The notes under the pieces were generated by a model. That model was not told where the DNA came from, searched no databases, and worked only from the letters and a program-made list of their open reading frames with translations. From Roseburia hominis (GTDB taxonomy: Bacteria; Bacillota; Clostridia; Lachnospirales; Lachnospiraceae): 64,000 nucleotides of DNA. Position numbers and translations under genes: made by a program. The stretch lies in NCBI GenBank assembly GCA_021771815.1, contig JAETOE010000002.1, positions 1-64,000 on the forward strand, given 5' to 3'. Below are positions 1 to 11,629 of this stretch, one piece after another (position 1 is the stretch's first letter; every line of letters begins with the position of its first letter).

Positions 1-135
1 TAAGTTAGTAAAACGCAACGATAATTAACATTTTTAACTTTGTCTATACTTGCAAAATGGGTTTTATGAACCCTTATACAAGTGCGTCCAAAAATCCACT
101 TTATTTTTCACTCTTATTGCTCCTTTTCATATTTT
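1..135. other. Non-coding, AT-rich stretch with a short hairpin
   Basis: I see no gene here. A GGGTT/AACCC hairpin at about 59-73, followed on the minus strand by a short T-rich stretch, may terminate the gene that ends at 136. Confidence 0.4.
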
Positions 136-744: not shown

Positions 745-763
745 AAAATATAATTCTCCTTTC

Positions 764-1312
764 TTATGCAATCCTGAACGTCATTTCTTTGCTGTCATCA
801 CGACTGGAGATTGACTTAGCAATGGAATTGTAGATTTTGGAGACATTATTGAGATCACTATTGTACTTCTCTAAAATATCTTCCAAATCACTCTCAAACT
901 TTTCGGCGGCTTTTTCTCCAGCCTTTTTAATTACATCCCGCTTTATTGAACTTATGTCAATATTACCGATTTGGTCCGAGATTTCTCTCTCAACTTTTCC
1001 ACGCAAATCGGCATAAGCGCTATCCACAGCCGTCTTGACTTCTTTCTGTATGTCATGACGAACCTGGTTCACAGCTGTTACGGTGGCAGACTGTACAGCC
1101 TTATATGCCGCTCTATCAGCCGCCCGATCAACAGCTTCCTTAACGATTGCATCTGGCATAGATATGTCAATGGATTCTGATAATTCATCCACGGATAAGT
1201 CCAGTTTTGCGCAGAGTTTATTCATTTTACTGGTTACATGCATGGCGTATCCAAGTGCCGCCACCCCTAGAATAAACAGTACCGAACCCACCAAATTTTC
1301 TTCATTTCTCAT
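764..1312 (-). CDS. Membrane-anchored coiled-coil protein, unknown function
   Basis: A 182-residue protein. The start at 1312 follows GAAAGGAGAAACT; the longer upstream frame is only read-through of that ribosome site. Residues 6-24 (LVGSVLFILGVAALGYAMH) form one transmembrane helix. The rest is a long charged, mostly helical region (KEAVDRAADRAAYKAV, EREISDQIGNIDISSIKRD, EKAAEKFESDLEDILEK) that looks like a coiled coil. Its TAA stop lies at the ribosome binding site of the next gene (744), so the two are probably co-translated. Such a protein could tether something to the membrane, but no family is recognised. Confidence 0.75.
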   Translation of the reverse strand: MRNEENLVGSVLFILGVAALGYAMHVTSKMNKLCAKLDLSVDELSESIDISMPDAIVKEAVDRAADRAAYKAVQSATVTAVNQVRHDIQKEVKTAVDSAYADLRGKVEREISDQIGNIDISSIKRDVIKKAGEKAAEKFESDLEDILEKYNSDLNNVSKIYNSIAKSISSRDDSKEMTFRIA

Positions 1313-1323
1313 AGTTTCTCCTT

Positions 1324-1515
1324 TCAGCTTATCTCCCGCAGTTTGCCGGGCAACGTAATCTTCACGCTGGCAATGCGGTTGTTCCTTTTCTTCCACTGGT
1401 AGGAAAGATTACTCCGGGCTTTTGTCTCAGATGCGGCCATTGTCTCTCCTTTCCAGTTACTCTGGACGCAACGGTCAAACTCCATGACCGGTCCATCATA
1501 CAAATACCTATTCAT
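1324..1515 (-). CDS. Small conserved element protein
   Basis: A 63-residue basic protein. The start at 1515 has AAGGAGG at a good distance. A second ATG at 1440, also with a GGAG upstream, lies in frame, but that GGAG is simply the codons for Lys-Gly-Glu. The sequence MEFDRCV, NWKGETMA and KARSNLSYQWKK reads as a compact conserved motif; I recall similar short proteins in Firmicutes mobile elements but cannot name a family. A hairpin terminator (1537-1575) lies just upstream, so its promoter must lie inside about 40 bases, or transcription must read through. Confidence 0.65.
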   Translation of the reverse strand: MNRYLYDGPVMEFDRCVQSNWKGETMAASETKARSNLSYQWKKRNNRIASVKITLPGKLREIS

Positions 1516-1536
1516 TGCAATCCTCCTTCCAGGAAA

Positions 1537-1578
1537 CGAAAAAAGGGAAAGCACCCTGTTACAGGTACTCTCCCCTCG
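1537..1578 (-). terminator. Terminator downstream of the 1595-1864 gene
   Basis: On the minus strand the arms AGTACC and GGGTGCT form a hairpin, followed by TTTCCCTTTTTT. Confidence 0.6.
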
Positions 1579-1594
1579 TCTGATCCACCGAATA

Positions 1595-1864
1595 TCATTC
1601 CTCGGATTCTTCTTCGGACTCCTCTTCGTCGTCAAAGTGGTCGTCATCAAAATCGTCCGCCGCCGTAGTGATCATGGGCTTTGCTTTCCGCGCTTTGATC
1701 TTGGCGATTACCGGCTTTGCCAGCTTACAGATAGCCATACCTGCAAGAATGCCCAAGCCGAAACCCGCTGCCATCTTAAACCCGCATCCAGAACTCGCTT
1801 TCACGATCTCCTCCGTAGCCGTCTCGATAACTTCCTCGTTTTCCATTACTTCATTAGGTTCCAT
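1595..1864 (-). CDS. Single-pass membrane protein with acidic tail
   Basis: An 89-residue protein with an acidic N-terminus, a hydrophobic segment (about residues 30-50, GCGFKMAAGFGLGILAGMAICKLA), a basic stretch (KIKARKAKP) and a very acidic C-terminus (DDFDDDHFDDEEESEEESEE). The basic stretch after the helix predicts cytoplasmic placement of one flank. The start is preceded by GAAAGGAGAACAATT. The 25-bp box at 1905-1929 lies upstream and a terminator follows, so it looks like an independent transcription unit. Function unknown. Confidence 0.75.
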   Translation of the reverse strand: MEPNEVMENEEVIETATEEIVKASSGCGFKMAAGFGLGILAGMAICKLAKPVIAKIKARKAKPMITTAADDFDDDHFDDEEESEEESEE

Positions 1865-1904
1865 AATTGTTCTCCTTTCGTTTATGAAATAGTGTGGATT
1901 CTTC

Positions 1905-1929
1905 CATTAAAGGCATTGTAATTTTTGCG
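1905..1929 (-). promoter_or_regulatory. 25-bp upstream box, copy 1
   Basis: Copy 1 of the repeated box. It reads CGCA at positions 1-4, CAA at 12-14 and TTAATG at the end. It precedes the 1595-1864 gene by about 40 bases. See the finding on the box family. Confidence 0.65.
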
Positions 1930-1932
1930 CAG

Positions 1933-2757
1933 TTACATCAAGGTGCGAAAATCATACCTTGGCGCTACCCGGTATCCAATCACAAGACAAGGCGTTTCGT
2001 CCTCTGCAAGCTGTGAACTGAACTCCAGGTTGATAAAACCGTCTGCCAGATTCCATCCGAGGTCATCACCAATATCAGTAGAACGCAATCCGATCTCGTA
2101 ATAGAACTCGTTCAGCGAAATATACATCTCGCTGATAAGCCTTTTATTCAGCTCGTTTTCCACCCTCCGGAGCTTTTCAATATCACACTTAAAATATCGG
2201 GATGTAATCGTATCGTAGCAGAGAGTCTCCCCGCGTCCTGTGATGATGACCTCTTTATTCACGACCGGATCACGCTGAATCTTGTCCTTTGCTACCGCAT
2301 CCCGGATTTCCTGCTCTTTCTTCTCCCCGATGGTCTCAATTACCTTCTCCTGGTACTCTTTTAAAGCGGACTCCGACAGAGAATAGGCCGCGGCCAGCGC
2401 TGCATTACGCCGAATGTTCACGGAGCTGGCTCCAATCAGGCAGGCAATAGAAAGTGCGCCAGTGATAGTAGCTGGAATATAACAGGTCCAAGTAGTCCGA
2501 ACAAGCTCTATCGGCTTTAGCTGGTCAACTTTCGGATGGCTGTCTAATCTTTTCCTTTCGGCATCTTCATACAGTTCTTTATTCTGCCGGCGCTTCTCCT
2601 CCTCGATAAGAATCAGCGCTTTGGGCGTTGCCCGCACTGCCAATACAGTGGTGGTAATCATCCCGGCGATGCCAACCCCGGTAAGGATTTCAGGGCTATG
2701 TTTATGCAACCCTACCTTTACACTTTTGGCAATCCGGGAGAAATCAGGTTTCTTCAT
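1933..2757 (-). CDS. DUF6353-like membrane protein A
   Basis: A 274-residue protein starting at 2757 after GGAGAAGCGATGAA. Residues around 16-40 (HSPEILTGVGIAGMITTTVLAVRATPKAL) give a first transmembrane helix, and about 90-115 (IPATITGALSIACLIGASSVNIRRNAAL) a second. A charged helical region follows, then a C-terminal module with LNEFYYEIGLRSTDIGDDLGW and a beta-rich end. It is a clear paralog of the 3939-4709 protein: both share ATPKA/VTPKA after helix 1, IPA...GA around helix 2, AYSL/AYAL and the FY...GW end. The DUF6353 name is from memory of similar phage and mobile-element proteins. Function unknown. Confidence 0.8.
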   Translation of the reverse strand: MKKPDFSRIAKSVKVGLHKHSPEILTGVGIAGMITTTVLAVRATPKALILIEEEKRRQNKELYEDAERKRLDSHPKVDQLKPIELVRTTWTCYIPATITGALSIACLIGASSVNIRRNAALAAAYSLSESALKEYQEKVIETIGEKKEQEIRDAVAKDKIQRDPVVNKEVIITGRGETLCYDTITSRYFKCDIEKLRRVENELNKRLISEMYISLNEFYYEIGLRSTDIGDDLGWNLADGFINLEFSSQLAEDETPCLVIGYRVAPRYDFRTLM

Positions 2758-2774
2758 TTCATCGCTTCTCCTTT

Positions 2775-2801
2775 CAAAATATAAACCGCCCACAAGGGGC
2801 G
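2775..2801 (-). terminator. Terminator downstream of the DUF6273-like gene
   Basis: Minus-strand CCGCCC, loop CTTGT, GGGCGG, then TTTATATTTT. The T tract contains one copy of the TTATATTT motif. Confidence 0.8.
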
Positions 2802-2805
2802 GAGA

Positions 2806-3363
2806 TTAGCCTAACCGCAAGCGGAGAACCGGACGAACCCCAAGAGAGCCCGACGCGCAGGCGTAGTTCGTATAGCCACTGCTGTTCACAAAAGCGAAAT
2901 ACGTCCCAGAAGACTTCAGCTTGTTCTGCAGCCAGCCCCACTCATAAGCTTCTCCTTCTCGGATGGCGATTCGATTCTTGCGGTCTTCCATAAGCGGCCA
3001 CTGTTTCTTTCCGCTCGGTTCATAAGAATCGACATCACCGAAGAATTCCTCCGCATACGGAATACGGAGCAAATCGCCATTCTTGAACGGAACCATCATT
3101 TCCCGGACAGAATCGAAGATTTCCAGAACACTGTTCTCCTGCAGCTCTTTACGCAGGTCGCTCGCCTCATAGCCGCCCTCGTTCGTATTCTCGCGATTCA
3201 TCTTAAAGGCCTCATCCAGATACTGGTCCAAAAGGAAGAGTGCCCCTTTCCTGGTGACTTTCTGGCAGGTAGCGGTATACTTTCCGATCTGAATCTGATC
3301 TCCGACCTTGAACTCGCCTGTTGTCTGAATAGATACTTCCTGTTTTCTTAATACTTTCATCAT
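2806..3363 (-). CDS. DUF6273-like domain protein
   Basis: A 185-residue protein. The C-terminal SSGYTNYACASGSLGVRPVLRL pattern is the hallmark of DUF6273-type domains (related to formylglycine-enzyme-like or C-type-lectin-like folds found in mobile elements and surface proteins); assignment is from memory. The N-terminal part (FKVGDQIQIGKYTATCQKVTRKGALFLLDQYLDEAF) also fits, as these proteins often describe a quantity or site being altered. No signal peptide or membrane helix is visible. Start: GAAAGGAGAAAA precedes two adjacent ATGs. A private terminator follows. Role unknown. Confidence 0.8.
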   Translation of the reverse strand: MMKVLRKQEVSIQTTGEFKVGDQIQIGKYTATCQKVTRKGALFLLDQYLDEAFKMNRENTNEGGYEASDLRKELQENSVLEIFDSVREMMVPFKNGDLLRIPYAEEFFGDVDSYEPSGKKQWPLMEDRKNRIAIREGEAYEWGWLQNKLKSSGTYFAFVNSSGYTNYACASGSLGVRPVLRLRLG

Positions 3364-3381
3364 TTTTCTCCTTTCGATATG

Positions 3382-3678
3382 TCATTTCATGGCAATCAGA
3401 ACGTCCAAAATATTCTCTGCCATGTCATGTGCGACTGAAAATATAAAACTGGTCTTTTTGTTCCGGCATGAGAAGTCATCCATTTTACGGATGAAATCCT
3501 CAACAACCATGATGGGCGGCGTGAATCGGGATTCTTCAATGCTTTTCAATATTTCACCCACCGCCCACCGGCTATACGAAACCTGCTTGAACCATTCTTT
3601 TGACATACGCCATCCCGGTTCTTTCAGGTATTCATCCGCATATTCCCGAATCACGGACAAAATATAATCGTTGCTCAT
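3382..3678 (-). CDS. Conserved hypothetical element protein
   Basis: A 98-residue soluble protein. The start at 3678 follows GAGGAGGCAGCGCA. It is rich in Trp and Tyr in the first half (EPGWRMSKEWFKQVSYSRWAVGEIL) and has a helical second half (VVEDFIRKMDDFS, AHDMAENILDVLI). It carries two copies of the TTATATTT motif, one at codons for Tyr-Ile-Leu near the N-terminus (3659-3667) and one at Ile-Phe (3438-3446). I do not recognise a family. Confidence 0.7.
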   Translation of the reverse strand: MSNDYILSVIREYADEYLKEPGWRMSKEWFKQVSYSRWAVGEILKSIEESRFTPPIMVVEDFIRKMDDFSCRNKKTSFIFSVAHDMAENILDVLIAMK

Positions 3679-3705
3679 TGCGCTGCCTCCTCTGCGCATT
3701 GTGTG

Positions 3706-3737
3706 CAAGAAGAAAGAGCCCTTGTTCAGGACTCCTC
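3706..3737 (-). terminator. Terminator overlapping the stop of the 3726-3890 gene
   Basis: Minus-strand GAGTCCT and AGGGCTC arms enclose the TGA stop, followed by TTTCTTCTT. Same module as at 5812, 6397, 7000 and 9617. Confidence 0.8.
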
Positions 3738-3890
3738 TTCTTCGTGTTCTTTCCTGGCCAATGCCTCATTCACTTTTTCTTCGATCTTTTCATCCATCTT
3801 CTTTTCGTTGACCCAATCGGTGATGAGTGATGTCCCCATCCCAATTACAGTCGCCGCCAATCCGATTCCTTTAATTACCGCTCCAGTCAT
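3726..3890 (-). CDS. Small membrane protein ending in EEEES
   Basis: A 54-residue protein. It starts MTGAVIKGIGLAATVIGMG and has one hydrophobic helix (about residues 3-22), then a charged helix (EKKMDEKIEEKVNEALARKEHEEEES). The start at 3890 has AAAGGAGG about ten bases upstream; an earlier ATG directly behind the ribosome site gives only a nine-codon frame. The last codons and the stop lie inside a terminator hairpin. The 25-bp box at 3908-3932 is directly upstream. Function unknown. Confidence 0.7.
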   Translation of the reverse strand: MTGAVIKGIGLAATVIGMGTSLITDWVNEKKMDEKIEEKVNEALARKEHEEEES

Positions 3891-3907
3891 AAAGCATCTC
3901 CTCCTTT

Positions 3908-3932
3908 CATAATAGTGGTTGCAAATTTTGCG
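3908..3932 (-). promoter_or_regulatory. 25-bp upstream box, copy 2
   Basis: CGCAAAA, then GCAA, ending TATTATG; the ribosome binding site AAAGGAGG follows at once. Confidence 0.65.
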
Positions 3933-3938
3933 GAGTTG

Positions 3939-4709
3939 TCAGCATTCCCATTCTTCCAGGACTTCCGGTGGAAATACCATGTCAATGGAATAACAGGCAG
4001 TTCCCCCATCGTCATTATCAATCAGCCGATGTTCAAAATCTACCCACATGATTCCAGAAGACATGGACCACCCAACGGTTCCTCCGTATTCGGTCATAGG
4101 CAATCCCAGAAATTCGTAGAACTCGTTAAGGAATGCATAACCTCTCATTGTAAAATTGCGGTTGAAATGATACTCAGCATCTATCACTTCCCGCTCATAC
4201 CGCATAATGGATTCCCCGGATATTTCATCGTAAAATATAACCTTACCATCCGGAACATCCGAATCAAGCGGATGGAAATTGCAATGTTCCCGTATCATGG
4301 CATTTCTGATTTCGGCATCTGCTTCTTCGCCATGCAGTTCGATCAACTTATCACGATATTCCTTATGATAGTTTCTAAGCAAAGCGTAAGCGCTCATCAA
4401 TCTTGCCTGATGCTGTTTGTTAAGAGCGTTTGCTCCGAAAATACAGAAGATGGTGCCAGCTCCAATAGCAGCCGCCGGAATATACAAATGAGCAACAGTG
4501 AGGACAATCTCCGTCCTGCTTAAATCTGTTCCTTTTTCGTCCGTAGCGTCTTCCAACAACTTCATAGCTTTAGGAGTCACCTTGACGGCGGCTACAGCTG
4601 TCCCGACTACGCCAACGGCAGCCACACAGCACAAAATGGTGGGAGAGGAACGTTTTAAATATAACCTCGACTTACCACACATTCTATAGATTTTTTGCTT
4701 CAAATTCAT
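3939..4709 (-). CDS. DUF6353-like membrane protein B
   Basis: A 256-residue paralog of the 1933-2757 protein. Helix 1 is at about residues 24-48 (PTILCCVAAVGVVGTAVAAVKVTPKAM) and helix 2 at about 70-92 (LYIPAAAIGAGTIFCIFGANAL). Then follow a helical region with AYALLRNYHKEYRDKLIELHGEE and the C-terminal LNEFYEFLGLPMTEYG..VGW module. It overlaps the end of the methylase-like gene by ATGA (4706-4709), a sign of translational coupling. The pair may act together at the membrane; that is inference. Confidence 0.8.
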   Translation of the reverse strand: MNLKQKIYRMCGKSRLYLKRSSPTILCCVAAVGVVGTAVAAVKVTPKAMKLLEDATDEKGTDLSRTEIVLTVAHLYIPAAAIGAGTIFCIFGANALNKQHQARLMSAYALLRNYHKEYRDKLIELHGEEADAEIRNAMIREHCNFHPLDSDVPDGKVIFYDEISGESIMRYEREVIDAEYHFNRNFTMRGYAFLNEFYEFLGLPMTEYGGTVGWSMSSGIMWVDFEHRLIDNDDGGTACYSIDMVFPPEVLEEWEC

Positions 4710-5656
4710 TTTTTACCCTTTCCTTTCACTGTAAAAAACTCTTTCCATGAAAACGGCTTCTTCTTGCCCTCTGATTTCTTCATGATCGGCATTTGCGGCG
4801 GTTTATGTACTGTTGGAACAGACCGCACAATCTCCGGTGTTATGCTTTTAGAGGGCTCCTCGGATTTAGGAGATTCTCTTTCTTCTTTCACCGTCTCTTC
4901 CAGCTTTCGTACTTCTGCGTTCCAGGATTTTATCCTGCGTAAGGTCCACACATCGGTAAAATATAATGGCGTAAACCAGATGTTTTCAGGCTTCTTATAG
5001 TTTGGTTCTATTGTGGTGCCACATACAGGTTCCGAAAGGGAATTCCCTACAACTACATATCCAGGGCATCCCAAAAGGCTGATTTGGATGTAACACATCT
5101 TTGCAACGACTTCATCAATATCCTGCCCGACAAAAAGTACCGACCGCTGATAGTTGATATCTATATCATCTTTACGGACCTTTGCAAACGCCATAAGCAT
5201 ACATCCCGCTCCACAGCAGGAGTCACAAACCGAAATATAATCTTCGGACGCAATCTGGTCTTTTGCCTCATCTCCTAACTGTAGCTTTGCCATAAGCTCA
5301 GCAACATGCCACGGCGTAAAGAACTGGCCATGCCATCCGCTTCCAAAGTCGAGCTGCATGTAGAACTTTCCAAGAAAGTCCTGAGCCGGATTCTCGTCTA
5401 AAGCTAACGTGGTAATGCTGAGCAGCTCAGAGATAAGATTGAGTTCATCCTTGGAATAGCTTTTAATCGTCTCCATGTATGAATCCTCCCTCAGCTTCCA
5501 GACCGCCGGTCTCTTATCCACAGCATTAGCGATGGCACATGCAGACATATTCACAAAGTCCTGCCACACTTTCCACGAATGGTGCCTCCTGCACAACTGC
5601 TCGAACACGTCAATAAACTGCTTCTCAAATTCTGTACTGCCTCTGATTCCTTTCAT
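4706..5656 (-). CDS. N-6 DNA methylase-like protein, probably catalytically degenerate
   Basis: A 316-residue protein resembling the core of type I (HsdM-like) adenine methylases. FGSGWHGQFFTPWHVAELMAKL (about residues 103-124) matches the GQ(F/Y)FTP entry motif, and CDSCCGAGCMLMAFA (about 145-160) is the SAM-binding motif I. FVGQDIDEVVAKMCYIQ is motif II/III-like, and GNSL follows. The catalytic (D/N)PP(Y/F) motif expected shortly after is absent: the protein reads EPNYKKPENIWFTPLYF instead. The C-terminal 60 residues are Lys/Pro/Glu-rich. It may bind SAM or DNA without methylating. It follows a tRNA-like gene and terminator, and overlaps DUF6353-like B by ATGA. Confidence 0.75.
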   Translation of the reverse strand: MKGIRGSTEFEKQFIDVFEQLCRRHHSWKVWQDFVNMSACAIANAVDKRPAVWKLREDSYMETIKSYSKDELNLISELLSITTLALDENPAQDFLGKFYMQLDFGSGWHGQFFTPWHVAELMAKLQLGDEAKDQIASEDYISVCDSCCGAGCMLMAFAKVRKDDIDINYQRSVLFVGQDIDEVVAKMCYIQISLLGCPGYVVVGNSLSEPVCGTTIEPNYKKPENIWFTPLYFTDVWTLRRIKSWNAEVRKLEETVKEERESPKSEEPSKSITPEIVRSVPTVHKPPQMPIMKKSEGKKKPFSWKEFFTVKGKGKK

Positions 5657-5675
5657 TCTTTTTCTCCTTTCGATA

Positions 5676-5703
5676 AAAAACTAGGAGCCCCTGTCAAGAC
5701 TCC
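5676..5703 (-). terminator. Terminator of the tRNA-like gene
   Basis: Minus-strand GGAGTCT, loop TGAC, AGGGGCTCC, then TAGTTTTTT. It lies between the tRNA-like gene and the ribosome site of the methylase-like gene, leaving very little room for a methylase promoter. Confidence 0.75.
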
Positions 5704-5714
5704 AAAACTTAAGA

Positions 5715-5783
5715 GAAGCAGTGAGGGACTCGAACCCTCGACCTCCGCATTTCAGCGGCGCTCCACCACTGAGCTAACTGTTT
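5715..5783 (-). tRNA. tRNA-like gene with short anticodon arm
   Basis: The D arm (GCTC AGTGGTG GAGC), five-base variable loop, T arm (GAGGG TTCGAGT CCCTC) and acceptor (AAACAGT with ACTGCTT, one A:C mismatch) follow tRNA rules. The anticodon arm is only 14 nt (CCGC TGAAAT GCGG) instead of 17. If the T is position 33, the anticodon would be GAA. The acceptor helix can extend by three further pairs (GAG/CTC). CCA is not encoded. It has its own upstream 25-bp box and terminator. It could be a functional odd tRNA, a decayed one, or a tRNA mimic. Confidence 0.55.
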
Positions 5784-5786
5784 CTC

Positions 5787-5811
5787 CATAATAGTCCTTG
5801 TAAATTTTGCG
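5787..5811 (-). promoter_or_regulatory. 25-bp upstream box, copy 3 (before the tRNA-like gene)
   Basis: CGCAAAA, ACAA, ending TATTATG, four bases before the tRNA-like acceptor. Because the product downstream is an RNA, this copy argues that the box acts in transcription and not in translation. Confidence 0.65.
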
Positions 5812-5843
5812 CAAGAAGAAAGAGCCCTTGTTCAGGACTCCTC
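5812..5843 (-). terminator. Terminator overlapping the stop of the 5832-6020 gene
   Basis: Same GAGTCCT/AGGGCTC hairpin and TTTCTTCTT tail as at 3706, again enclosing the TGA stop. Confidence 0.8.
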
Positions 5844-6020
5844 TTCGTGGTTCTTAAACTTGCTCTTGATGTACTCCGTGATGTCGCTCCAGTAGAACCA
5901 AAGGTACGGAACAATCATCGAAATTACCAGCAACACCGAATATCCTTTCCAGTGCTTCTTCAGCCATTTCCATGACGGTCTCATAACCATTTCGTTGTAT
6001 TCCTTTAATGCTTTCATCAT
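5832..6020 (-). CDS. Small single-pass membrane protein ending in EEES
   Basis: A 62-residue protein. A basic, Trp-rich N-terminus (MRPSWKWLKKHWKGYS) is followed by one transmembrane helix (about residues 28-46, VLLVISMIVPYLWFYWSDI) and a charged tail (EYIKSKFKNHEEES). The positive-inside rule puts the N-terminus in the cytoplasm. The start is preceded by CAGGAGGGTACAATT. Box copy 4 (6053-6077) lies upstream and a terminator module covers the stop. Function unknown. Confidence 0.75.
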   Translation of the reverse strand: MMKALKEYNEMVMRPSWKWLKKHWKGYSVLLVISMIVPYLWFYWSDITEYIKSKFKNHEEES

Positions 6021-6052
6021 AATTGTACCCTCCTGAAATTAGTTTATTTTTC

Positions 6053-6077
6053 CATAAAAGCCCTTGCGATTTTTGCG
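6053..6077 (-). promoter_or_regulatory. 25-bp upstream box, copy 4
   Basis: CGCAAAAAT, GCAA, ending CTTTTATG. Confidence 0.65.
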
Positions 6078-6108
6078 TATGTAAAAGCGAAGAGACCGTG
6101 TCTCCACG
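6077..6108 (-). terminator. Weak terminator after the 6122-6337 gene
   Basis: Minus-strand GAGAC/GTCTC hairpin followed by TTCGCTTTT. The stem is short. Confidence 0.45.
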
Positions 6109-6121
6109 ATCCCTCAACTCT

Positions 6122-6337
6122 TTACAAACCAATCGCTGCCAGAAGCTTTGTAAGTTCGTCTTTACCCAATTCCGCATCTACATTCAAGTGAACATGAGCC
6201 GTTCCGTCCGTAACCGTTGCCGTAAATTCATTCAGCTGAATATCCACTTCGCATCCTGCCTTTTTCTTTACCTCTCTTTTTACAAACTTAGCAATCAAGT
6301 TCCTCAAGAATTTTGAGTTGATTTTCATTTCGTCCAT
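6122..6337 (-). CDS. Small conserved element protein
   Basis: A 71-residue soluble protein. The start at 6337 has AAAGGAGAAAAGGAGT upstream; the longer frame reads through the intergenic region. The first half is basic and helical (KFLRNLIAKFVKREVKKKAGC); the second half alternates like beta strands (VDIQLNEFTATVTDGTAHVHLNVDAEL) and ends in a helix. The sequence reads like a lipid- or nucleic-acid-interacting small domain, but no family is recognised. Box copy 5 is upstream. Confidence 0.65.
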   Translation of the reverse strand: MDEMKINSKFLRNLIAKFVKREVKKKAGCEVDIQLNEFTATVTDGTAHVHLNVDAELGKDELTKLLAAIGL

Positions 6338-6369
6338 ACTCCTTTTCTCCTTTCCAAATCGTTGGTTTT

Positions 6370-6394
6370 CATAAAGGCAGTTGTATTTCAAGCG
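6370..6394 (-). promoter_or_regulatory. 25-bp upstream box, copy 5
   Basis: CGC, then ACAA, ending CCTTTATG. The first third is the most diverged of the set. Confidence 0.6.
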
Positions 6395-6396
6395 TA

Positions 6397-6427
6397 AAGA
6401 GAAAGAGCCCTTGTTAGGACTCTCTCG
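6397..6427 (-). terminator. Terminator overlapping the stop of the 6414-6569 gene
   Basis: GAGTCCT/AGGGCTC hairpin with the TAA stop in the loop, followed by TTTCTCTTT. Confidence 0.75.
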
Positions 6428-6569
6428 CATACTGTAATTTCTGTAACGACATACGCATTTTTGTCAGTTCATTTCTGAGCGTTTCAATTTCGTACCCATT
6501 TTTACTCCGTAATAACATATCTTCAAATATGCGTATTTTGTTGCTTAAATGCCTCTCCGTTTTGCTCAT
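6414..6569 (-). CDS. Very small charged helical protein
   Basis: A 51-residue protein, MSKTERHLSNKIRIFEDMLL at the start and LQKLQYARES at the end. It is predicted to be almost wholly helical, with heptad-like Leu/Ile spacing, so a short coiled coil is likely. The start is supported by GAAAGGAGAAAAGA. The stop lies in the recurring terminator module and box copy 6 lies upstream. I do not recognise it. The compact cassette layout, shared with its neighbours, is the main reason to believe it is a gene. Confidence 0.65.
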   Translation of the reverse strand: MSKTERHLSNKIRIFEDMLLRSKNGYEIETLRNELTKMRMSLQKLQYARES

Positions 6570-6600
6570 TCTTTTCTCCTTTCGTAAATACGTAGCTTTC

Positions 6601-6625
6601 CATAAAAGGAGTTGTAATTTCCGCT
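6601..6625 (-). promoter_or_regulatory. 25-bp upstream box, copy 6
   Basis: AGCGGAAATT, ACAA, ending CTTTTATG; position 1 is A instead of C. Confidence 0.6.
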
Positions 6626-6983
6626 AAATATCACGCCGGTCGAATACCGTTTCCCAACGTTCTCTTGGTATCGGCTTCATCTTCAAAGCCCACATGATTT
6701 GTCTTACTGTAACCGTTGGATAAAGTTCATCCACACAATCGCCTGCTCTGTTTTCAAAGTATTCCTTGAACTTCGGATGCAAATATAAGTCATCTGTAAT
6801 CCACGAATCCACCTCGCTCCACCAGGTACTCTTAGTCTCGGCGTCAAAACGCTGCTGAATAACAGCCAGTCCTTTTTCGCCAATCTTGAACAAAGTGCAG
6901 CTATTATAGACCGGATGCTCACAAATATAACGTTCTCCATACATGGAGAGATAAATCGTCGGTTTTTCATAGTGGTATCGCAT
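6624..6983 (-). CDS. Conserved hypothetical element protein
   Basis: A 119-residue soluble protein. The N-terminal half is beta-rich (PTIYLSMYGERYICEHPVYNSCTLFKIGEKGLAVIQQRFD) and followed by WWSEVDSWITDDLYLHPKFKEYFENRAGD and a C-terminal TVRQIMWALKMKPIPRERWE. The Trp content is high. Two TTATATTT motifs fall within it, at Tyr-Ile (6923-6930) and Leu-Tyr-Leu codons (6781-6788). The ribosome site AGGGAGCGAG precedes ATG 6983. There is no 25-bp box directly upstream. No family is recognised. Confidence 0.75.
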   Translation of the reverse strand: MRYHYEKPTIYLSMYGERYICEHPVYNSCTLFKIGEKGLAVIQQRFDAETKSTWWSEVDSWITDDLYLHPKFKEYFENRAGDCVDELYPTVTVRQIMWALKMKPIPRERWETVFDRRDI

Positions 6984-6999
6984 ATCTCGCTCCCTACTG

Positions 7000-7031
7000 C
7001 AAGAAGAAAGAGCCCTTGTTAGGACTCCTCT
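7000..7031 (-). terminator. Terminator overlapping the stop of the 7019-7351 gene
   Basis: GAGTCCT/AGGGCTC hairpin with the TAA stop in the loop and TTTCTTCTT tail. Confidence 0.8.
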
Positions 7032-7351
7032 TTAAATCGGTTTGTAATAATTCCATCAACATTAAAATCCAGCTCAATGTTCGGTTCTTCGCCCTTTGTA
7101 GTTATCCCAAAATCAATAAAGTTGTCTCCAATAGGGTTCTCCAAATCATAAACCCATCCTACAAATAACGTCTTTAATGTTATAGGGAAACCGAGATCCT
7201 CATAAATATCTCTGAGGAATACATAGCCCCGCATCTTTAATAAATCGTTAAAATAGGTCTGTTTTGATTGTAGAAGTAATAAATTAAACTTCTGATTTTT
7301 ATCCCATAATGGACATTTAGAATCAAACACTTGCGAATACATGCTTTTCAT
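7019..7351 (-). CDS. Soluble protein with the DUF6353-type C-terminal module
   Basis: A 110-residue protein. From about residue 35, KMRGYVFLRDIYEDLGFPITLKTLFVGWVYDL aligns by eye with TMRGYAFLNEFYEFLGLPMTEY..TVGW of DUF6353-like protein B, followed by a beta-rich end. The transmembrane N-terminal half of that family is missing, so this is a stand-alone or truncated version. The start at 7351 uses the leader GAAAGGAGCGTGATATTT, which recurs before the genes at 8393 and 9931. The C-terminus FKEES comes from the terminator module. Box copy 7 is upstream. Confidence 0.7.
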   Translation of the reverse strand: MKSMYSQVFDSKCPLWDKNQKFNLLLLQSKQTYFNDLLKMRGYVFLRDIYEDLGFPITLKTLFVGWVYDLENPIGDNFIDFGITTKGEEPNIELDFNVDGIITNRFKEES

Positions 7352-7368
7352 AAATATCACGCTCCTTT

Positions 7369-7393
7369 CATAAGAGCAGTTGTTATCTATGCG
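7369..7393 (-). promoter_or_regulatory. 25-bp upstream box, copy 7
   Basis: CGCAT, ACAACTG, ending CTTATG; the ribosome site follows immediately. Confidence 0.65.
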
Positions 7394-7438
7394 AAGAAAA
7401 ACGAAGAGTCCATGCGTTTCGCACGAACTCTCCGCTTA
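7393..7438 (-). terminator. Strong terminator after the 7452-7886 gene
   Basis: Eleven-pair minus-strand stem GAGTTCGTGCG/CGCATGGACTC (with G:T pairs), loop AAA, then TTCGTTTTTC. Confidence 0.8.
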
Positions 7439-7451
7439 TTTGTTTCCAAAT

Positions 7452-7886
7452 TCACTTCTTTGTCGGTCTGAATCGATTGAACAATCCTCTGAATGTCGTT
7501 GAAGTATAAGTTCCCGTCTCCTCGAATTTGAATCCTCTCTTCATCCAGGTCGCATAGAAAATCAGCGGTAATACGATTCCTGCCACCTCTACTCCAAGTT
7601 TGAAATATCGGTCTTTAGTCTGTTCCGCCAACTGATCTTTCTTGAACTGTTCCTCGCGGGCCTGCCGATCCAGCTCATCCTGTTCGTGCTGTGCATCTAC
7701 ATCCCTACGATATAACTTTTCATCGTAATCAGTGTCGGCTTTTACATCCTCCAATCCCAATCTATAGAGTTTGGTGACATTTTCCACTGCCGTCTGCTGC
7801 TCTTTGCTTCCCGGTTCAAGATTACTCAAACCATTAAGTTGACTTAAAATCTCATTTGCCAACGCCTGTCTAATTTGTTCATCCAT
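7452..7886 (-). CDS. Coiled-coil membrane protein
   Basis: A 144-residue protein. Residues 1-45 are helical. About 46-92 is a highly charged Asp/Glu/Gln/Arg helix (RRDVDAQHEQDELDRQAREEQF), probably a coiled coil. One transmembrane helix follows at about 97-115 (LGVEVAGIVLPLIFYATWM), then a basic tail (KRGFKFEE...TTFRGLFNRFRPTKK). The layout resembles small membrane-anchored phage proteins, but no family is identified. Box copy 8 lies 38 bases upstream of the start. Confidence 0.75.
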   Translation of the reverse strand: MDEQIRQALANEILSQLNGLSNLEPGSKEQQTAVENVTKLYRLGLEDVKADTDYDEKLYRRDVDAQHEQDELDRQAREEQFKKDQLAEQTKDRYFKLGVEVAGIVLPLIFYATWMKRGFKFEETGTYTSTTFRGLFNRFRPTKK

Positions 7887-7923
7887 CGTTTTCTTCTCCT
7901 TTCAATGATGAATTTTTATGTTC

Positions 7924-7948
7924 CATAACAGAGAGTGTTATTTATGCG
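7924..7948 (-). promoter_or_regulatory. 25-bp upstream box, copy 8
   Basis: CGCATAAAT, ACA, ending TGTTATG. It overlaps the last codons of the 7938-8156 gene. Confidence 0.6.
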
Positions 7949-8156
7949 TTCTGCCTTTATTAACAACATTGAGTTTTACCATCGGTTGCGCCCTCAGTCT
8001 TTCGATGTCCAATCTTGAAATTTCAAGGAACATATAGGAACCGTCCTCCGGATCATCCGCAATCACCAAATTCCCGATGGTGTCCTTTCTCAAAACATGC
8101 AGAGTCGCAGCAACACCAAGCAAAAACCCCACAATTACTCCAACCACTATCAGCAC
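7938..8156 (-). CDS. Small single-pass membrane protein, GTG start
   Basis: A 72-residue protein. Residues 2-20 (LIVVGVIVGFLLGVAATLHVL) are a transmembrane helix. The soluble part has DDPEDGSYMFLEIS, which I recall as a recurrent pattern (DP.DG.Y.FLEL) in small Clostridia phage and mobile-element proteins. The start is GTG at 8156 with GGAGAAAGAA before it; no ATG fits. Its end overlaps box copy 8 for the next gene. No terminator is seen, so it may be co-transcribed with 7452-7886. Confidence 0.7.
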   Translation of the reverse strand: MLIVVGVIVGFLLGVAATLHVLRKDTIGNLVIADDPEDGSYMFLEISRLDIERLRAQPMVKLNVVNKGRTHK

Positions 8157-8248
8157 TTCTTTCTCCTTTCCGAAAAGTTCTCCCGAATTTCTTACCCGGG
8201 GAATTTTCCAAATACCAAAATAGCATGTTTTTCCGTTACCTTCGTTCT

Positions 8249-8288
8249 GAAAATATAAAAGAAAAGAGCCATTGCTGGCTCAATCTTT
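8249..8288 (-). terminator. Terminator after the 8280-8393 gene
   Basis: GAGCCA, loop GCAA, TGGCTC, then TTTTCTTTTATATTTTC. The tail holds one TTATATTT motif. Confidence 0.8.
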
Positions 8289-8393
8289 CAGGTATCCGAC
8301 TTTATAAAGAATCTTTCCGATAACCGCCCAAAACTTCTGTTTGACCGTCAATGTCCTCCAGATAACCGGGTCAATCGTTATTTTTCTTTTCAT
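8280..8393 (-). CDS. Very small basic protein
   Basis: A 37-residue protein, beginning MKRKITIDPVIWRTL and ending ILYKVGYLKD, with an amphipathic, weakly hydrophobic middle (KQKFWAVIGKILYKVG). The start at 8393 uses the same leader, GAAAGGAGCGTGATATTT, as the 7351 gene, with box copy 9 immediately upstream and a private terminator. Gene reality rests on that cassette structure. Function unknown. Confidence 0.6.
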   Translation of the reverse strand: MKRKITIDPVIWRTLTVKQKFWAVIGKILYKVGYLKD

Positions 8394-8410
8394 AAATATC
8401 ACGCTCCTTT

Positions 8411-8435
8411 CATAAAGAGCCATGCAAATTTTGCG
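8411..8435 (-). promoter_or_regulatory. 25-bp upstream box, copy 9
   Basis: CGCAAAATTTGCA, ending CTTTATG; the first half is a near-palindrome GCAAA/TTTGC. Confidence 0.65.
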
Positions 8436-8436
8436 T

Positions 8437-8467
8437 AAAGAGAAAGAGCCTCTGTTAGGCTCCTCTC
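8437..8467 (-). terminator. Terminator overlapping the stop of the 8455-8634 gene
   Basis: GAGCCT, loop AACAG with the TAA stop at its start, AGGCTC, then TTTCTCTTT. Confidence 0.8.
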
Positions 8468-8634
8468 CTTTCGTTGTAATAATTTGAATAGCTGACACGA
8501 CTGCTACGTTTCCTTGACTCTGTCTTTTCATCAGCCAATGCTGCCATAACACATACAAAGATTGCGATTAATCCGCTTTCAAATGCGAGTGCTACTGACA
8601 AAATATAAATGATTATAGACTTTATCTTTGACAT
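8455..8634 (-). CDS. Small membrane protein
   Basis: A 59-residue protein. MSKIK is followed by a long hydrophobic stretch (about residues 5-32, IIIYILSVALAFESGLIAIFVCVMAALA) with one Glu, then a charged tail with Ser/Arg/Tyr (KTESRKRSSRVSYSNYYNERRGA). The tail resembles the SYRSYYDKRDDR stretch of the 136-744 protein. The start at 8634 follows AAAGGAGGCATGGTTAT. Box copy 10 is upstream; the stop lies in a terminator loop. Function unknown. Confidence 0.7.
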   Translation of the reverse strand: MSKIKSIIIYILSVALAFESGLIAIFVCVMAALADEKTESRKRSSRVSYSNYYNERRGA

Positions 8635-8651
8635 ATAACCATGCCTCCTTT

Positions 8652-8676
8652 CATAAAGGAGATTATAATTATTGCG
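8652..8676 (-). promoter_or_regulatory. 25-bp upstream box, copy 10
   Basis: CGCAATAATT, ATAA, ending CCTTTATG. It overlaps the last codons of the 8669-8878 gene. Confidence 0.6.
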
Positions 8677-8878
8677 TACCCTTTGATTTTTCGTATGTAA
8701 TATTCTTTCTGAGACTGGACCAGGGAATATAACGATCCTCTCTGCAAACTGGGCAAAAGAACTTGTTGACCTTTCCGCCGATATCAACGAATTCCTGACT
8801 CTCACCCTCCAACCGGCTACCGCACACCGGACAGCTAAAGCGATAGGTCTGCTTAATGGCTTTCTCTACAATCTTCAT
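8669..8878 (-). CDS. Zinc-ribbon protein
   Basis: A 69-residue protein with two CPVC-type knuckles: SCPVCGSRLEG at about residues 15-25 and FFCPVCREDR at about 40-50. This is a CxxC...CxxC zinc ribbon likely to bind one zinc ion. The tail is basic. The start is supported by GAGGACTGAGGT. It lies just downstream of the 8889-9302 gene with a 10-base gap and is probably in the same transcript. A DNA- or protein-binding adaptor is plausible; no family is assigned. Confidence 0.75.
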   Translation of the reverse strand: MKIVEKAIKQTYRFSCPVCGSRLEGESQEFVDIGGKVNKFFCPVCREDRYIPWSSLRKNITYEKSKGTQ

Positions 8879-8888
8879 ACCTCAGTCC

Positions 8889-9302
8889 TCACTTTCTTAT
8901 CCGATTCAGAATCCAGAAGAAGCGCCTGTATAATTCGTAGTAGACATCCTTACAGCAAGGCACGTTTACTCTCGCCCTCAGATGGTCATAAGAGATTCCC
9001 TGGGTAACGGCTTTCAAAATATAATCCCCCAATTCTGCATCCGTTTCCGCAGCAGCTTTTTCAATCAGCCCCATCCGTTCGGAATAGAACTCTCTCGCCT
9101 CCACACACTTGACGGTTGGATCGCCAATGCTTCCGGTAAGCTTAACCGCATCAATCGGGCGTTGGCTCAAACTGCTTAGTGCCGCCCTTGCTTTCTTCCA
9201 GATTGGATACTGAAGACAGAAGTGCTTCAACTCATAGTACCGATGCTTTTCAATCCAGTACGGATTTTTTTCCGACAACTCTGGCCGTATTGTTGTGCTC
9301 AT
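8889..9302 (-). CDS. Conserved element protein, possible regulator
   Basis: A 137-residue protein, mainly helical. It contains YYELKHFCLQYPIWKKA, a middle with YSERMGLIEKAAAETD and a C-terminal PCCKDVYYELYRRFFWILNRIR. I recall similar proteins in Clostridia mobile elements near RinA/ArpU-like positions, but this is not a firm assignment. The start at 9302 overlaps the stop of the HTH-like gene by ATGA, so translation is coupled. A TTATATTT motif lies at 9016-9024 in the codons for DYIL. Confidence 0.7.
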   Translation of the reverse strand: MSTTIRPELSEKNPYWIEKHRYYELKHFCLQYPIWKKARAALSSLSQRPIDAVKLTGSIGDPTVKCVEAREFYSERMGLIEKAAAETDAELGDYILKAVTQGISYDHLRARVNVPCCKDVYYELYRRFFWILNRIRK

Positions 9303-9544
9303 TTTCGTTCTCCTTTCCACACATAGCCCGTTTCCTCGAACAGCAATTTGGGAGAGATATAGAAGTTGATGCGTCCGTACTTGCTATTCATCTCCTCAAT
9401 GTCTGTAATCAGCTTTCCGTTCCTTGTGGCTTTTCCGATCGGCAGCCACCCGGATATGATGCCAGCTCGGACCCAGGAAGCATCTTTTCCATATACTTTA
9501 GCCGCCACGGAGACAGGAACAGAACCGCTCGCAAATTCTTCCAT
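9299..9544 (-). CDS. Helix-turn-helix-like DNA-binding protein
   Basis: An 81-residue protein. VPVSVAAKVYGKDASWVRAGIISGWLPIGKATRNG reads as a winged-helix or excisionase-type helix-turn-helix (AA.VYG...WVR..I..GWLP). It is followed by ITDIEEMNSKYGRINFYISPKLLFEETGY. The placement near the integrase fits an excisionase or regulator role; this is inference. The start is preceded by AAAGGAGGTAGACGCAG. The upstream region has a TTAACCTAGA element also found upstream of the 10253 gene. Confidence 0.7.
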   Translation of the reverse strand: MEEFASGSVPVSVAAKVYGKDASWVRAGIISGWLPIGKATRNGKLITDIEEMNSKYGRINFYISPKLLFEETGYVWKGERK

Positions 9545-9616
9545 CTGCGTCTACCTCCTTTCTACGGCTATTCTAGGTTAAGGACGGCTGTTAGTAAAAA
9601 CAACCTCGGTGGAAAC

Positions 9617-9655
9617 GGAGCAAGAAGAAAGAGCCCTTGTTTAGGACTCCTCTTT
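9617..9655 (-). terminator. Terminator overlapping the stop of the 9641-9931 gene
   Basis: GAGTCCT/AGGGCTC hairpin with the TAA stop in the loop and TTTCTTCTT tail. Confidence 0.8.
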
Positions 9656-9931
9656 AAAATTCTTTAAGTAATTATCCAGATAGTCAAATTCATCAACGCA
9701 AACTTTCAGAGTATTTAAAGCCAATTTGGTTCCTTCTTTACAAAAATGTTGATTTTTCTTCTTTGCCCATCCATGTATAAGCCGATATATGCCGCCTCTA
9801 TTTTTTGTATATGCATATATCTTTTTACATCGCTCAGCTTGTCGAGTAAAATAATCAACTTTTCTGTGATTCCGACTTATTTCAGCTATAACTCTGTCGT
9901 GGTATGCTTTCGTTTTCCTTTCGTCTATCAT
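9641..9931 (-). CDS. Basic helical protein ending in KEES
   Basis: A 96-residue protein, Lys/Arg/Tyr-rich. It contains YHDRVIAEISRNHRKVDYFTRQAERCKKIYAYTKN and a second helical part (LALNTLKVCVDEFDYLDNYLKN). The start at 9931 uses the leader GAAAGGAGTGTGATATTT, almost identical to those at 7351 and 8393. The last codons are in the terminator module. Box copy 11 is upstream. A nucleic-acid-binding role would fit the charge, but no family is recognised. Confidence 0.7.
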   Translation of the reverse strand: MIDERKTKAYHDRVIAEISRNHRKVDYFTRQAERCKKIYAYTKNRGGIYRLIHGWAKKKNQHFCKEGTKLALNTLKVCVDEFDYLDNYLKNFKEES

Positions 9932-9947
9932 AAATATCACACTCCTT

Positions 9948-10253
9948 TCATAAGAGCAGTTGCGATTTCTGCGCTTTCCAACGAATCATGGTCATCTCGC
10001 ACGGGTAATCTTCGTATCCCATCGTTTCCGGAGTAATGAATCCCTCCAGGACTCCTCGAATAATTTCTGCTTCATACTGCTTGTATGGAAAAATATCCTC
10101 TGGCAATTCTCTATGTAGCCTACCGCACTTTGGACATCTCAATCTCCGGATTATCGTTCTATTTGTAACACGTCCTTTTGTCCGTACAATCCGTTTTACC
10201 TTATCGTAAAGTTTCAGTCGTCCGCCACACTTCGGGCAGACTGTTTCATTCAC
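9948..10253 (-). CDS. DUF6431-like zinc-ribbon protein, GTG start
   Basis: A 101-residue protein. CPKCGGRL (residues 5-12) and CPKCGRLHRELP (about 39-50) form a zinc ribbon. It is followed by FPYKQYEAEIIRGVLEG and YEDYPCEMTMIRWK, which I recall as the conserved core of DUF6431, a family with transposase-like zinc-finger and helix-turn-helix parts. The start is GTG at 10253; no ATG is near and the ribosome site GAGGTGAT lies upstream. It is divergent from the integrase across about 140 bases that hold a GGTTATATTTTAACC palindrome, so it may regulate the integrase (inference). Confidence 0.75.
   Translation of the reverse strand: MNETVCPKCGGRLKLYDKVKRIVRTKGRVTNRTIIRRLRCPKCGRLHRELPEDIFPYKQYEAEIIRGVLEGFITPETMGYEDYPCEMTMIRWKAQKSQLLL
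9949..9973 (-). promoter_or_regulatory. 25-bp upstream box, copy 11
   Basis: CGCAGAAAT, GCAACTG, ending CTTATG. It is also the last codons and stop of the 9948-10253 gene. Confidence 0.65.
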
Positions 10254-10320: not shown

Positions 10321-10356
10321 GTAGGAGTTGACAATTCCTACACTATGATATATGAT
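10321..10356 (+). promoter_or_regulatory. Integrase promoter with overlapping inverted repeat
   Basis: TTGACA at 10328-10333 and TATGAT at 10351-10356 are separated by exactly 17 bases. The inverted repeat GTAGGA (10321-10326) / TCCTAC (10336-10341) brackets the -35 and could be an operator. GTAGGA also occurs twice just after the integrase (11642 and 11656). Confidence 0.8.
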
Positions 10357-10390
10357 TGCTATGGATGTTGCAACAGAAAGGAGAGATGAG

Positions 10391-11629
10391 ATGTTAATTA
10401 AATGTCCTGAGTGCGAACTGCAGATAAGTGACAAGGCTTTGATTTGCCCGCATTGTGGCTATCCAATTCAGCCGGATGCAAAGCCACGAGTTCCGCGAAA
10501 ATCAAACAAGCGCAGACGCCTGCCAAACGGATTCGGACAGATCAGTGAGATTAAGGGACGAAATCTTCGTAATCCGTTCCGAGCAATGGTGACAGTTGGA
10601 AAGACCAAAACAGGCAGACCCATTTGCAAACCTTTGAAACCGGAATCGTATTTTCCAACTTATAACGACGCTTATGCCGCCCTGGTGGAATATAACAAGA
10701 ATCCTTATGATCTTGGTCCCGCCATCACAGCAAAGGAACTATACGAGAAATGGACAGAGAGCTATTTTAAAACCTTGAAGTCAGACGCGAGTGCAAGAGC
10801 AGTAGACGCCGCCTGGGCGTATTGTACTTCCGTATACGACATGAGAGTGATGGATATCCGTGCCAGGCATGTGAAAGGCTGTATGGAAGAGGGGACAGCG
10901 ATTGTAAAAGGGAAAGAGCAACATCCCAGCGCTGCCATGAAGAACAAAATCAAATCCCTGTTCAATCAAATGCTGGACTATGCTTTGGAATATGAGCTTG
11001 TAGATCGGAATTACTCCAGAACTTTCAACCTGTCGGATGAAGTCATCAAGGAAGTTACAAGTGTCAAGAAAGGTCATATCGCTTTTACGGATGAAGAGAT
11101 AGCATTGCTTTGGGAACATGTGGATGACAAACGGTATGTTGACGCAATCCTGATTCAATGCTATTCTGGATGGAGACCGCAGGAGCTTGGATTGCTGGAA
11201 CTGGAAAACGTTGATCTTGAAAACTGGACTTTCAAAGGTGGTATGAAAACTGAAGCGGGTACCGACAGAGTTGTTCCTATCCATTCAAGAATCCGACCTT
11301 TGGTTCTTCGGAAGTATAAAGAGGCTAAAGCTCTTGGAAGTAAGTATCTGTTCAACTGCACTGACCCAGACAGTAACCGCAAAAACATAATGTTCACCTA
11401 TAACCGGTACCAGAAAGGTTTTACCCGAATCCGGACAGAACTGAATCTTAATCCGGAACACCGTCCACATGACGGACGTACACACTTTGTCACCGCTGCC
11501 AAAAAAGCAGGTGTTGACGAATATGCAATCAAATATATGGTGGGTCATAAAATCTCGGACATCACCGAAAAGGTATACACGAAAAGAGAGTTTGAATGGC
11601 TCAAAGAAGAAATAGAAAAAATAAAATAG
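10391..11629 (+). CDS. int: Tyrosine recombinase with N-terminal zinc ribbon
   Basis: A 412-residue site-specific integrase. Residues 4-23 (CPECELQISDKALICPHCGY) are a zinc ribbon. An arm-binding AP2-like region (about 45-105, FRAMVTVGKTKTGRPICKP) and a helical core-binding domain follow. Catalytic residues visible are Arg in GWRPQEL, His-x-x-Arg in PHDGRTHF, His in MVGHK and Tyr in KVYTK. The start at 10391 has AAAGGAG eight bases upstream; the earlier in-frame ATG at 10352 lies on the -10 box and cannot be used. It catalyses insertion and excision of the element. It is the only plus-strand gene of the element. Confidence 0.95.
   Translation: MLIKCPECELQISDKALICPHCGYPIQPDAKPRVPRKSNKRRRLPNGFGQISEIKGRNLRNPFRAMVTVGKTKTGRPICKPLKPESYFPTYNDAYAALVEYNKNPYDLGPAITAKELYEKWTESYFKTLKSDASARAVDAAWAYCTSVYDMRVMDIRARHVKGCMEEGTAIVKGKEQHPSAAMKNKIKSLFNQMLDYALEYELVDRNYSRTFNLSDEVIKEVTSVKKGHIAFTDEEIALLWEHVDDKRYVDAILIQCYSGWRPQELGLLELENVDLENWTFKGGMKTEAGTDRVVPIHSRIRPLVLRKYKEAKALGSKYLFNCTDPDSNRKNIMFTYNRYQKGFTRIRTELNLNPEHRPHDGRTHFVTAAKKAGVDEYAIKYMVGHKISDITEKVYTKREFEWLKEEIEKIK

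Follow-up and report, generated by a model that had tools for sequence, protein, structure and literature searches.

A repeated 25-bp box in a Roseburia hominis prophage remnant as a probable promoter of a phage-encoded RNA polymerase

The DNA analysed here is a stretch of 64,000 nucleotides (the window) from Roseburia hominis (assembly GCA_021771815.1, contig JAETOE010000002.1), which contains the remnant of a prophage with eleven copies of a 25-bp box on its minus strand. The boxes are very probably start signals for transcription, and, with a probability of about 0.8 as judged from sequence comparison, the box serves as promoter for a single-chain two-barrel RNA polymerase that phages encode and that belongs to the phrog_4291 family. 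Members of this family are found in a large group of related phages from gut and soil, and in the genomes compared the box is linked to the phages that encode them. In the proposed mechanism, the phage polymerase would be made by the host polymerase or brought in by the virion, and would then fire each box. It would read three segments with fixed spacing, CGC (positions 1-3), RCA (11-13) and T-x-T-W-A-T-G (19-25). Transcription would begin at or beside the final G of the box, and the units driven by single boxes would be short genes, small operons or small structured RNAs.

As a candidate promoter, the box occurs in hundreds of copies, has a start base that can be predicted and a candidate reader, and is also carried by phages with named hosts (Arthrobacter, Gordonia and Streptomyces). 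If this reading is true, the middle region of published actinophages would be re-annotated, an explanation would be at hand for a class of small RNAs of tRNA-like or hairpin form, the polymerase-promoter pair would occur in two phyla, and rivals may eavesdrop on a phage promoter.

The box family in the window and in related phages

All eleven boxes of the original prediction were found at their coordinates on the minus strand, and the letters it had described as invariant were confirmed by a letter check. The following boxes are supported by this coordinate check and by a weight matrix.

Box 1, 1905-1929, minus strand: CGCAAAAATTACAATGCCTTTAATG, before gene 1595-1864
Box 2, 3908-3932, minus strand: before gene 3726-3890, ribosome site abuts the box
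Box 3, 5787-5811, minus strand: before tRNA-like gene 5713-5784
Box 4, 6053-6077, minus strand: before gene 5832-6020
Box 5, 6370-6394, minus strand: before gene 6122-6337
Box 6, 6601-6625, minus strand: before gene 6414-6569
Box 7, 7369-7393, minus strand: before DUF6353 C-terminal-like gene 7019-7351, ribosome site abuts the box
Box 8, 7924-7948, minus strand: before gene 7452-7886
Box 9, 8411-8435, minus strand: before small open reading frame (ORF) 8280-8393, ribosome site abuts the box
Box 10, 8652-8676, minus strand: before gene 8455-8634, ribosome site abuts the box
Box 11, 9949-9973, minus strand: before gene 9641-9931, ribosome site abuts the box

In a leave-one-out matrix each box scored 19.2-30.7, compared with 12.2 for the best non-box site on both strands of the window (full matrix), so that a family far above chance was borne out; only 8 sites scoring at least 12 with the window matrix were found in 1 Mb of random sequence from a Markov model. 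A pattern that fits six of the eleven boxes exactly had 6 matches in the whole 3.74-Mb genome, all inside this element, and the reversed pattern had none over the same genome. The possibility that the matrix would be equally frequent in host sequence was tested and not found to be the case. One box each precedes ten protein genes and one tRNA-like gene; these are about half of the roughly 25 genes in the ORF list, and not most of them as had been claimed.

The same box precedes genes in phages of Lachnospiraceae, Faecalibacterium, Arthrobacter, Gordonia and Streptomyces, and is, as far as these sequences tell, conserved across phyla. The relatives include prophages of Lachnospiraceae and other Clostridia, IMG/VR contigs and the gut scaffold MT835485, as well as siphoviruses of Arthrobacter, Gordonia, Streptomyces and Faecalibacterium. 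Matches scoring at least 12 numbered 3-12 in each of the loci L012-L027, and those scoring at least 14 numbered 4-13 in nine of the ten loci L028-L037 and one in L034. The identical letters of box 1 occur in locus L016 and genome G012. The box of Mudcat, Secretariat and Rima reads CGC...ACA...TATAATG, TATAGTG or TATAATA, and RavenPuff has one strong box and three weak copies. A relaxed pattern had 38 matches in six IMG/VR contigs, on one strand per contig, with none for the reversed control. Most matches of the matrix scan proposed in the original prediction fell within elements of this kind and ahead of gene starts, and single boxes outside such phages also exist.

Among 106 boxes chosen with the window matrix, the strong positions were C1 G2 C3, C12 A13, C18 T19, T21 and A23 T24 G25, and the candidate promoter held about 27 bits of information. 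CGCA and YRCA resemble a direct repeat nine bases apart in these boxes. In 291 non-redundant boxes, information was found at positions 1-31 and in a weak T two bases before (0.33 bits), and no -35 element was present.

The phrog_4291 protein and its co-occurrence with the box

The gene of the candidate reader was annotated as RNA-dependent RNA polymerase in phages FP_oengus and Secretariat, and the same protein as a helix-turn-helix (HTH) protein in Rima and RavenPuff. All four proteins matched phrog_4291 with an expectation value (E) of 0, and HTH matches were located near both ends of each. The protein is about 900 amino acids (aa) long, and its motif GADFDGD, invariant in 50 aligned rows, agrees with the DxDxD catalytic motif that two-barrel polymerases (RDR, YonO and cellular types) carry in a double-psi barrel. 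The Pfam RdRP profile matched weakly (E 0.003-0.004, two of the four proteins). The predicted structure (mean pLDDT, a per-residue confidence score, 81.7; predicted template modelling score, pTM, 0.69) gave plant RDR2 as its best match in a fold search (E 2e-6, template modelling (TM) score 0.26). No polymerase was found when the family profile was compared with PDB sequences, where the best hit was a 'CAP repeat' chain (E 5e-5). By sequence, no homology to the YonO family proper was detectable, as the 50-row profile gave -2.7 bits against YonO. By inspection of the list, phrog_4291 was the sole recognised transcription protein among the proteins common to the compared phages. We infer from these sequences that phrog_4291 would be an active RNA polymerase which itself reads the box. 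Its predicted HTH segments perhaps contact the box, and the two N-terminal segments together with the CGCA and YRCA halves hint at a possible direct match of protein to box. The element-encoded factor envisaged in the original prediction is supported and can be specified as, most likely, a whole phage RNA polymerase.

In the 299 genomes searched from the family of the window, full-length phrog_4291 was found in six, and 11 more had only short weak segments. The six genomes contained 6, 6, 7, 5, 12 and 0 strict boxes; for the one with zero (G269), the 19.5 kb retrieved contained one variant box, immediately behind the polymerase gene. At least five boxes were present in five of the six genomes with the polymerase, compared with one of the 293 genomes without it, namely the window's own genome (G000, 6 boxes). 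Of the remaining polymerase-free genomes, the 68%-complete G224 had three boxes and 23 had one. The total over all 299 genomes was 68, compared with 11 for the reversed pattern. Arrays of the motif are concentrated in genomes with the cognate polymerase, with single boxes elsewhere as exceptions.

The association was also seen in other collections. The polymerase was present in 11 of the 15 records behind the first loci, and the misses were contigs of 42 and 19 kb, one metagenome-assembled genome and MT835485. From 32 polymerase contigs of at least 20 kb, two with earlier box matches were set aside, and the box pattern was found in 28 of the 30 tested (178 matches, compared with one control match). 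The two negative contigs were G341, which has two variant boxes, and G315, which ends 568 bp upstream of the polymerase gene. A box was present in the fetched piece of 66 of 80 polymerase loci, always on the strand of the polymerase. A box-first search gave 37 new contigs, which were all new records of at least 25 kb among the matches listed; among these, the polymerase was found in 28, including 17 of 17 contigs of at least 50 kb.

In 56 of 66 polymerase loci with enough sequence, the polymerase gene is preceded by a box at a distance of 0.6-1.35 kb (median 0.94), and in 44 of the 66 a helix and a T-run follow this box. A hairpin and T-run follow immediately at G012:70732, G013:339704, G001:3881 and FP_oengus 27684. 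The product of this box is a candidate short RNA or (self-)attenuator, as predicted from the sequence. In FP_oengus, the phrog_4291 gene lies a few small genes before the virion genes. The letter pattern of its N-terminus (HYGxxRxSGRYPWGSG) resembles HYGxKGMKWG of head-module proteins in 3 of 12 loci, a likeness which would fit, as a weak hint, packaging of the polymerase in the virion. Directly behind the polymerase gene, a conserved protein of 78-89 aa (LTTxDNPFNPF) is encoded (18361-18627 in L056, 31391-31660 in FP_oengus), which is a candidate partner of phrog_4291.

The RNA start and alternative explanations

The tRNA-like gene which the original prediction placed behind one box proved to be real:

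5713-5784, minus strand: tRNA-like gene, 5' end 3 nt after the last base of box 3 (ARAGORN; Rfam RF00005, 48.4 bits)

In the window and 41 loci, ARAGORN made 12 tRNA calls, one of them a repeat of another locus; three of the 12 lie away from boxes (L039 18558, L078 and L128). Nine tRNA-like genes (eight distinct) start 1-5 nt behind a box, that is, at box positions 26-30, with five 5' ends at position 28 (two identical), two at 30, one at 27 and one at 26. In the Rfam search, tRNA was the only family matched (five loci). Sequences in L016, L020 and L013 were tRNA-like by eye only and had no ARAGORN call. Among the box-driven tRNA-like genes, those at 10426-10501 in L160, 6402-6469 in L030 and 6380-6471 in L029 have odd or differing anticodons (TTA reading stop, TAT, CGA) and may be decoys or mimics of tRNA.

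Short RNAs follow many of the boxes, and their first bases form pairs with the segment in front of a T-run. With a fixed rule (at least 9 pairs, closed by a T-run), a helix was found behind 88 of 336 boxes, compared with 20.6 in shuffles, and its outermost base was at positions 22-25 for 64 boxes, compared with 3.4. In 36 non-redundant cases, positions 26-29 were paired in 143 of 144 cells, by A-T, G-C and G-T pairs. Motifs resembling ribosome sites start at positions 26-29 in 49 of 202 cases, and the distance from box to start codon varies while the box is constant. Because the tRNA-like ends, the RNA stems and the ribosome-site positions converge, the RNA probably starts at or beside the last G of the box, at or before about position 26. 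The role in transcription proposed originally is thus supported and sharpened to a predicted start base. A start there would be too close for a sigma-A -10 element; by this predicted geometry, the box does not fit a -10 at positions 19-24, which would start near 31. A pairing of box positions 13-25 with the ribosome site (read-through insulation) was also considered and dropped, since the pairing energies in 146 boxes equalled those of swapped pairs (-3.44 compared with -3.38).

In T4 middle promoters, an activator acts in place of the -35. Likewise, the host sigma-A polymerase could use positions 19-24 as the -10, with a phage activator at CGC...RCA replacing the -35. The fixed spacing, the missing -35 and the repeat-like CGCA and YRCA would suit such an arrangement, as would the TATAAT or TATAGT of the Arthrobacter, Gordonia and Streptomyces phages; in two Gordonia phage papers the motif was called a sigma-70 -10 (PMC9671010 and PMC10868162, in the excerpts available). 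However, the start would then lie near 30-32, which would remove 5' bases of seven of the nine tRNA-like genes and cut the ribosome sites in 49 of the 202 cases, and only 46 of the 106 boxes have A at position 20 (-11). No sigma-A -35/-10 hexamers at 16-18 nt were found in the box, and none of the 22 sigma-70 sites scanned (17.7 +/- 4.5 in shuffles) overlaps any window box, which supports the original view that the box differs from an ordinary sigma-A promoter. The shared proteins, which were profiled only in part, included none that could be recognised as a small activator. Use of the box by host polymerase and an activator is thus considered unlikely.

Start-associated sequences, termed SAS and ESAS, are present in cluster K mycobacteriophages. 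They are mentioned in PMC7302621 (in the excerpt available). That the box is an operator or a sequence of this kind, acting in repression or translation, would be consistent with its frequent position next to the ribosome site, but is quite improbable given that it also precedes tRNA-like and small RNAs and stays constant at varying distances from the start codon. Site-specific recombination of cassettes, suggested originally as a cassette-exchange site, would account for the gene swaps that break at terminator and box repeats, and rearrangement at the motif was noted in the available part of the Mossy paper (PMC11008172). However, the boxes stand on one strand, upstream of genes, and ordinary homologous recombination in repeats explains the swaps as well, so that a dedicated exchange site is not supported and seems very improbable.

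Several observations weigh against promoter function with phrog_4291 as the reader. The fold match to RDR2 is globally poor, and cellular beta' subunits appeared in the fold search only at E 0.08 and worse. The survey of the 299 genomes scored at most two candidates per genome. Nine of the 37 box-found contigs had no polymerase, among the matches listed; in five of these, genes from the same group of phages were present (three with confirmed DUF6353 or DUF6431, two judged by eye), and four were other elements. MT835485 also has boxes without the polymerase, although it seems to start inside the phage. The polymerase co-occurs with the whole phage core (DNA polymerase, helicase, nucleases and the 78-89 aa protein), and therefore co-occurrence alone cannot single it out. 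The boxes of the 106-box consensus, the 336-box helix test and the 291-box profile were chosen with the window matrix and its extension, and the actinophage element reads TATAAT, a perfect sigma-A -10. The 36 helices were selected for pairing before the pair types were counted, and swapped boxes keep the same stem boundary, so that the boundary at base 25 is partly set by box letters and letter 25 as the start is not proven.

Non-virion polymerases of PhiKZ and AR9, and T7-type enzymes, also use short promoters ending near the start base, with enzymes and sequences that differ from phrog_4291 and the box. To our knowledge, few phage polymerases of the single-chain two-barrel type have a known cognate promoter. 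The closest worked example, by analogy, is P23-45, for which start sites, chromatin immunoprecipitation and activity were measured for the promoters of the virion (vRNAP, gp96) and non-virion (nvRNAP, gp64) polymerases in a paper that deals with 23 families (PMC10770324, excerpts). In both systems, phage polymerases of the single-chain two-barrel type are each associated with a DNA motif that is conserved and lies upstream; P23-45 is a Thermus phage with other motifs, and its promoters were measured whereas the box is known from sequence. YonO of SPbeta resembles phrog_4291 as a single-chain polymerase of a Firmicute phage with DxDGD, and according to the available text its promoter is still to be determined (PMC5467207); it differs in that it transcribes the late genes as one operon, and in the profile result given above. 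No box was found near yonK, and one doubtful box (19.3) was seen in the 28 kb of SPbeta read.

A repeated motif of cluster DJ Gordonia phages is very probably the same element as the box. It has been read as a sigma-70 -10 (Vardy, PMC9671010; Conley, PMC10868162), as a translational start with rearrangements (Mossy, PMC11008172) and as repeats (Fazel, PMC12750149). Like the box, it is repeated, intergenic, contains TATAAT and lies in the middle region; the excerpts of these papers do not connect it with a phage polymerase or with phages of Firmicutes. The box is present in Secretariat (Deejayvirinae), which we infer to belong to cluster DJ. No paper joining the motif to a polymerase was found in a search without subscription journals and preprints.

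Isolated boxes and the broken prophage

Twelve single boxes scoring at least 29 were found in genomes without the polymerase, where about 0.3 were expected, and 11 of the 12 loci were fetched. In G052 and G285, of two genera with nearly identical DNA here, the box lies 16 nt behind McrBC genes. It lies behind an AIPR/AbiU-like gene in G162, which also has a ResIII-like gene in the flank; viral contig L269 carries an AIPR gene 98% identical to that of G162 and an identical box. In G246, a RES-domain gene has the box at a distance of 2 nt behind it. The strong single boxes next to genes of the McrBC, AIPR/AbiU-like and RES-domain kinds stand at L149 4334, L150 4943, L152 4865 and L153 4884. In a different phage with SNF2 helicase and D5-like primase (L242, L267 and L275), a tandem double box drives a 73-aa gene, which runs against the direction of its neighbours and whose only relatives found were these three loci themselves.

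From such loci it can be proposed, as a rather doubtful idea, that host islands and other phages carry the box, in one or two copies, before their own genes as a polymerase-triggered trap in defence or competition. These genes would be activated only once a phage of this family produces or injects its polymerase. Weighing against this idea, no clear defence gene lies beside the box in G116, G310, G179 and G170, no same-strand gene lies behind it in G095, and the box of G105 is at a contig end. Among homologues of the 391-aa gene of L149 (14 loci) and the 377-aa gene of L152 (20 loci), a strong box was present only in the starting, phage and window loci, with weak boxes or none elsewhere; most of the distant homologues of genes from G052 and G162 had no box. 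Since the box is weak or absent at most homologues, the trap idea stays a lead. The genes of L149 and L153, the only pair compared, showed no homology.

The element in the window, described originally as mobile, can be named more specifically as a prophage remnant. Its parts are:

114-10253, minus strand: right part of the prophage, with DUF6353, DUF6273, N6-methyltransferase (N6-MTase)-like and DUF6431 genes (profile matches)
10352-11629, plus strand: tyrosine-type integrase at the end of the element (Phage_integrase PF00589, E 2e-13), layout as in FP_oengus

Genes at 0.1-10.3 kb match PHROG families and the DUF6353, DUF6273, DUF6431 and N6-MTase profiles; DUF6353 was not mentioned in the literature searched. 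The phrog_4291 family was not found in the window's genome by a family search, and the 20-kb stretch from DNA polymerase to RNA polymerase of G012 had only one 70-base match there (E 8e-4). The element is therefore a remnant as far as the assembly shows, and since the polymerase gene was not found, the window boxes probably stay inactive except during infection by a related phage. The remainder of the phage was probably removed by an insertion element, because the alignment to relatives ends at position 114 and the repeat at 1-127 recurs at the ends of contigs C24 and C81. The end of the DUF6273 gene (2791-2911) recurs in host contig C56 (89% and 77%). A terminator repeat, GAGGAGTCCTAACAAGGGCTCTTTCTTCTTGC, stands at gene ends (6999-7036, with similar copies at 5804-5855 and 9628-9652), and exchanges of genes between relatives extend from this repeat to the box and ribosome site.

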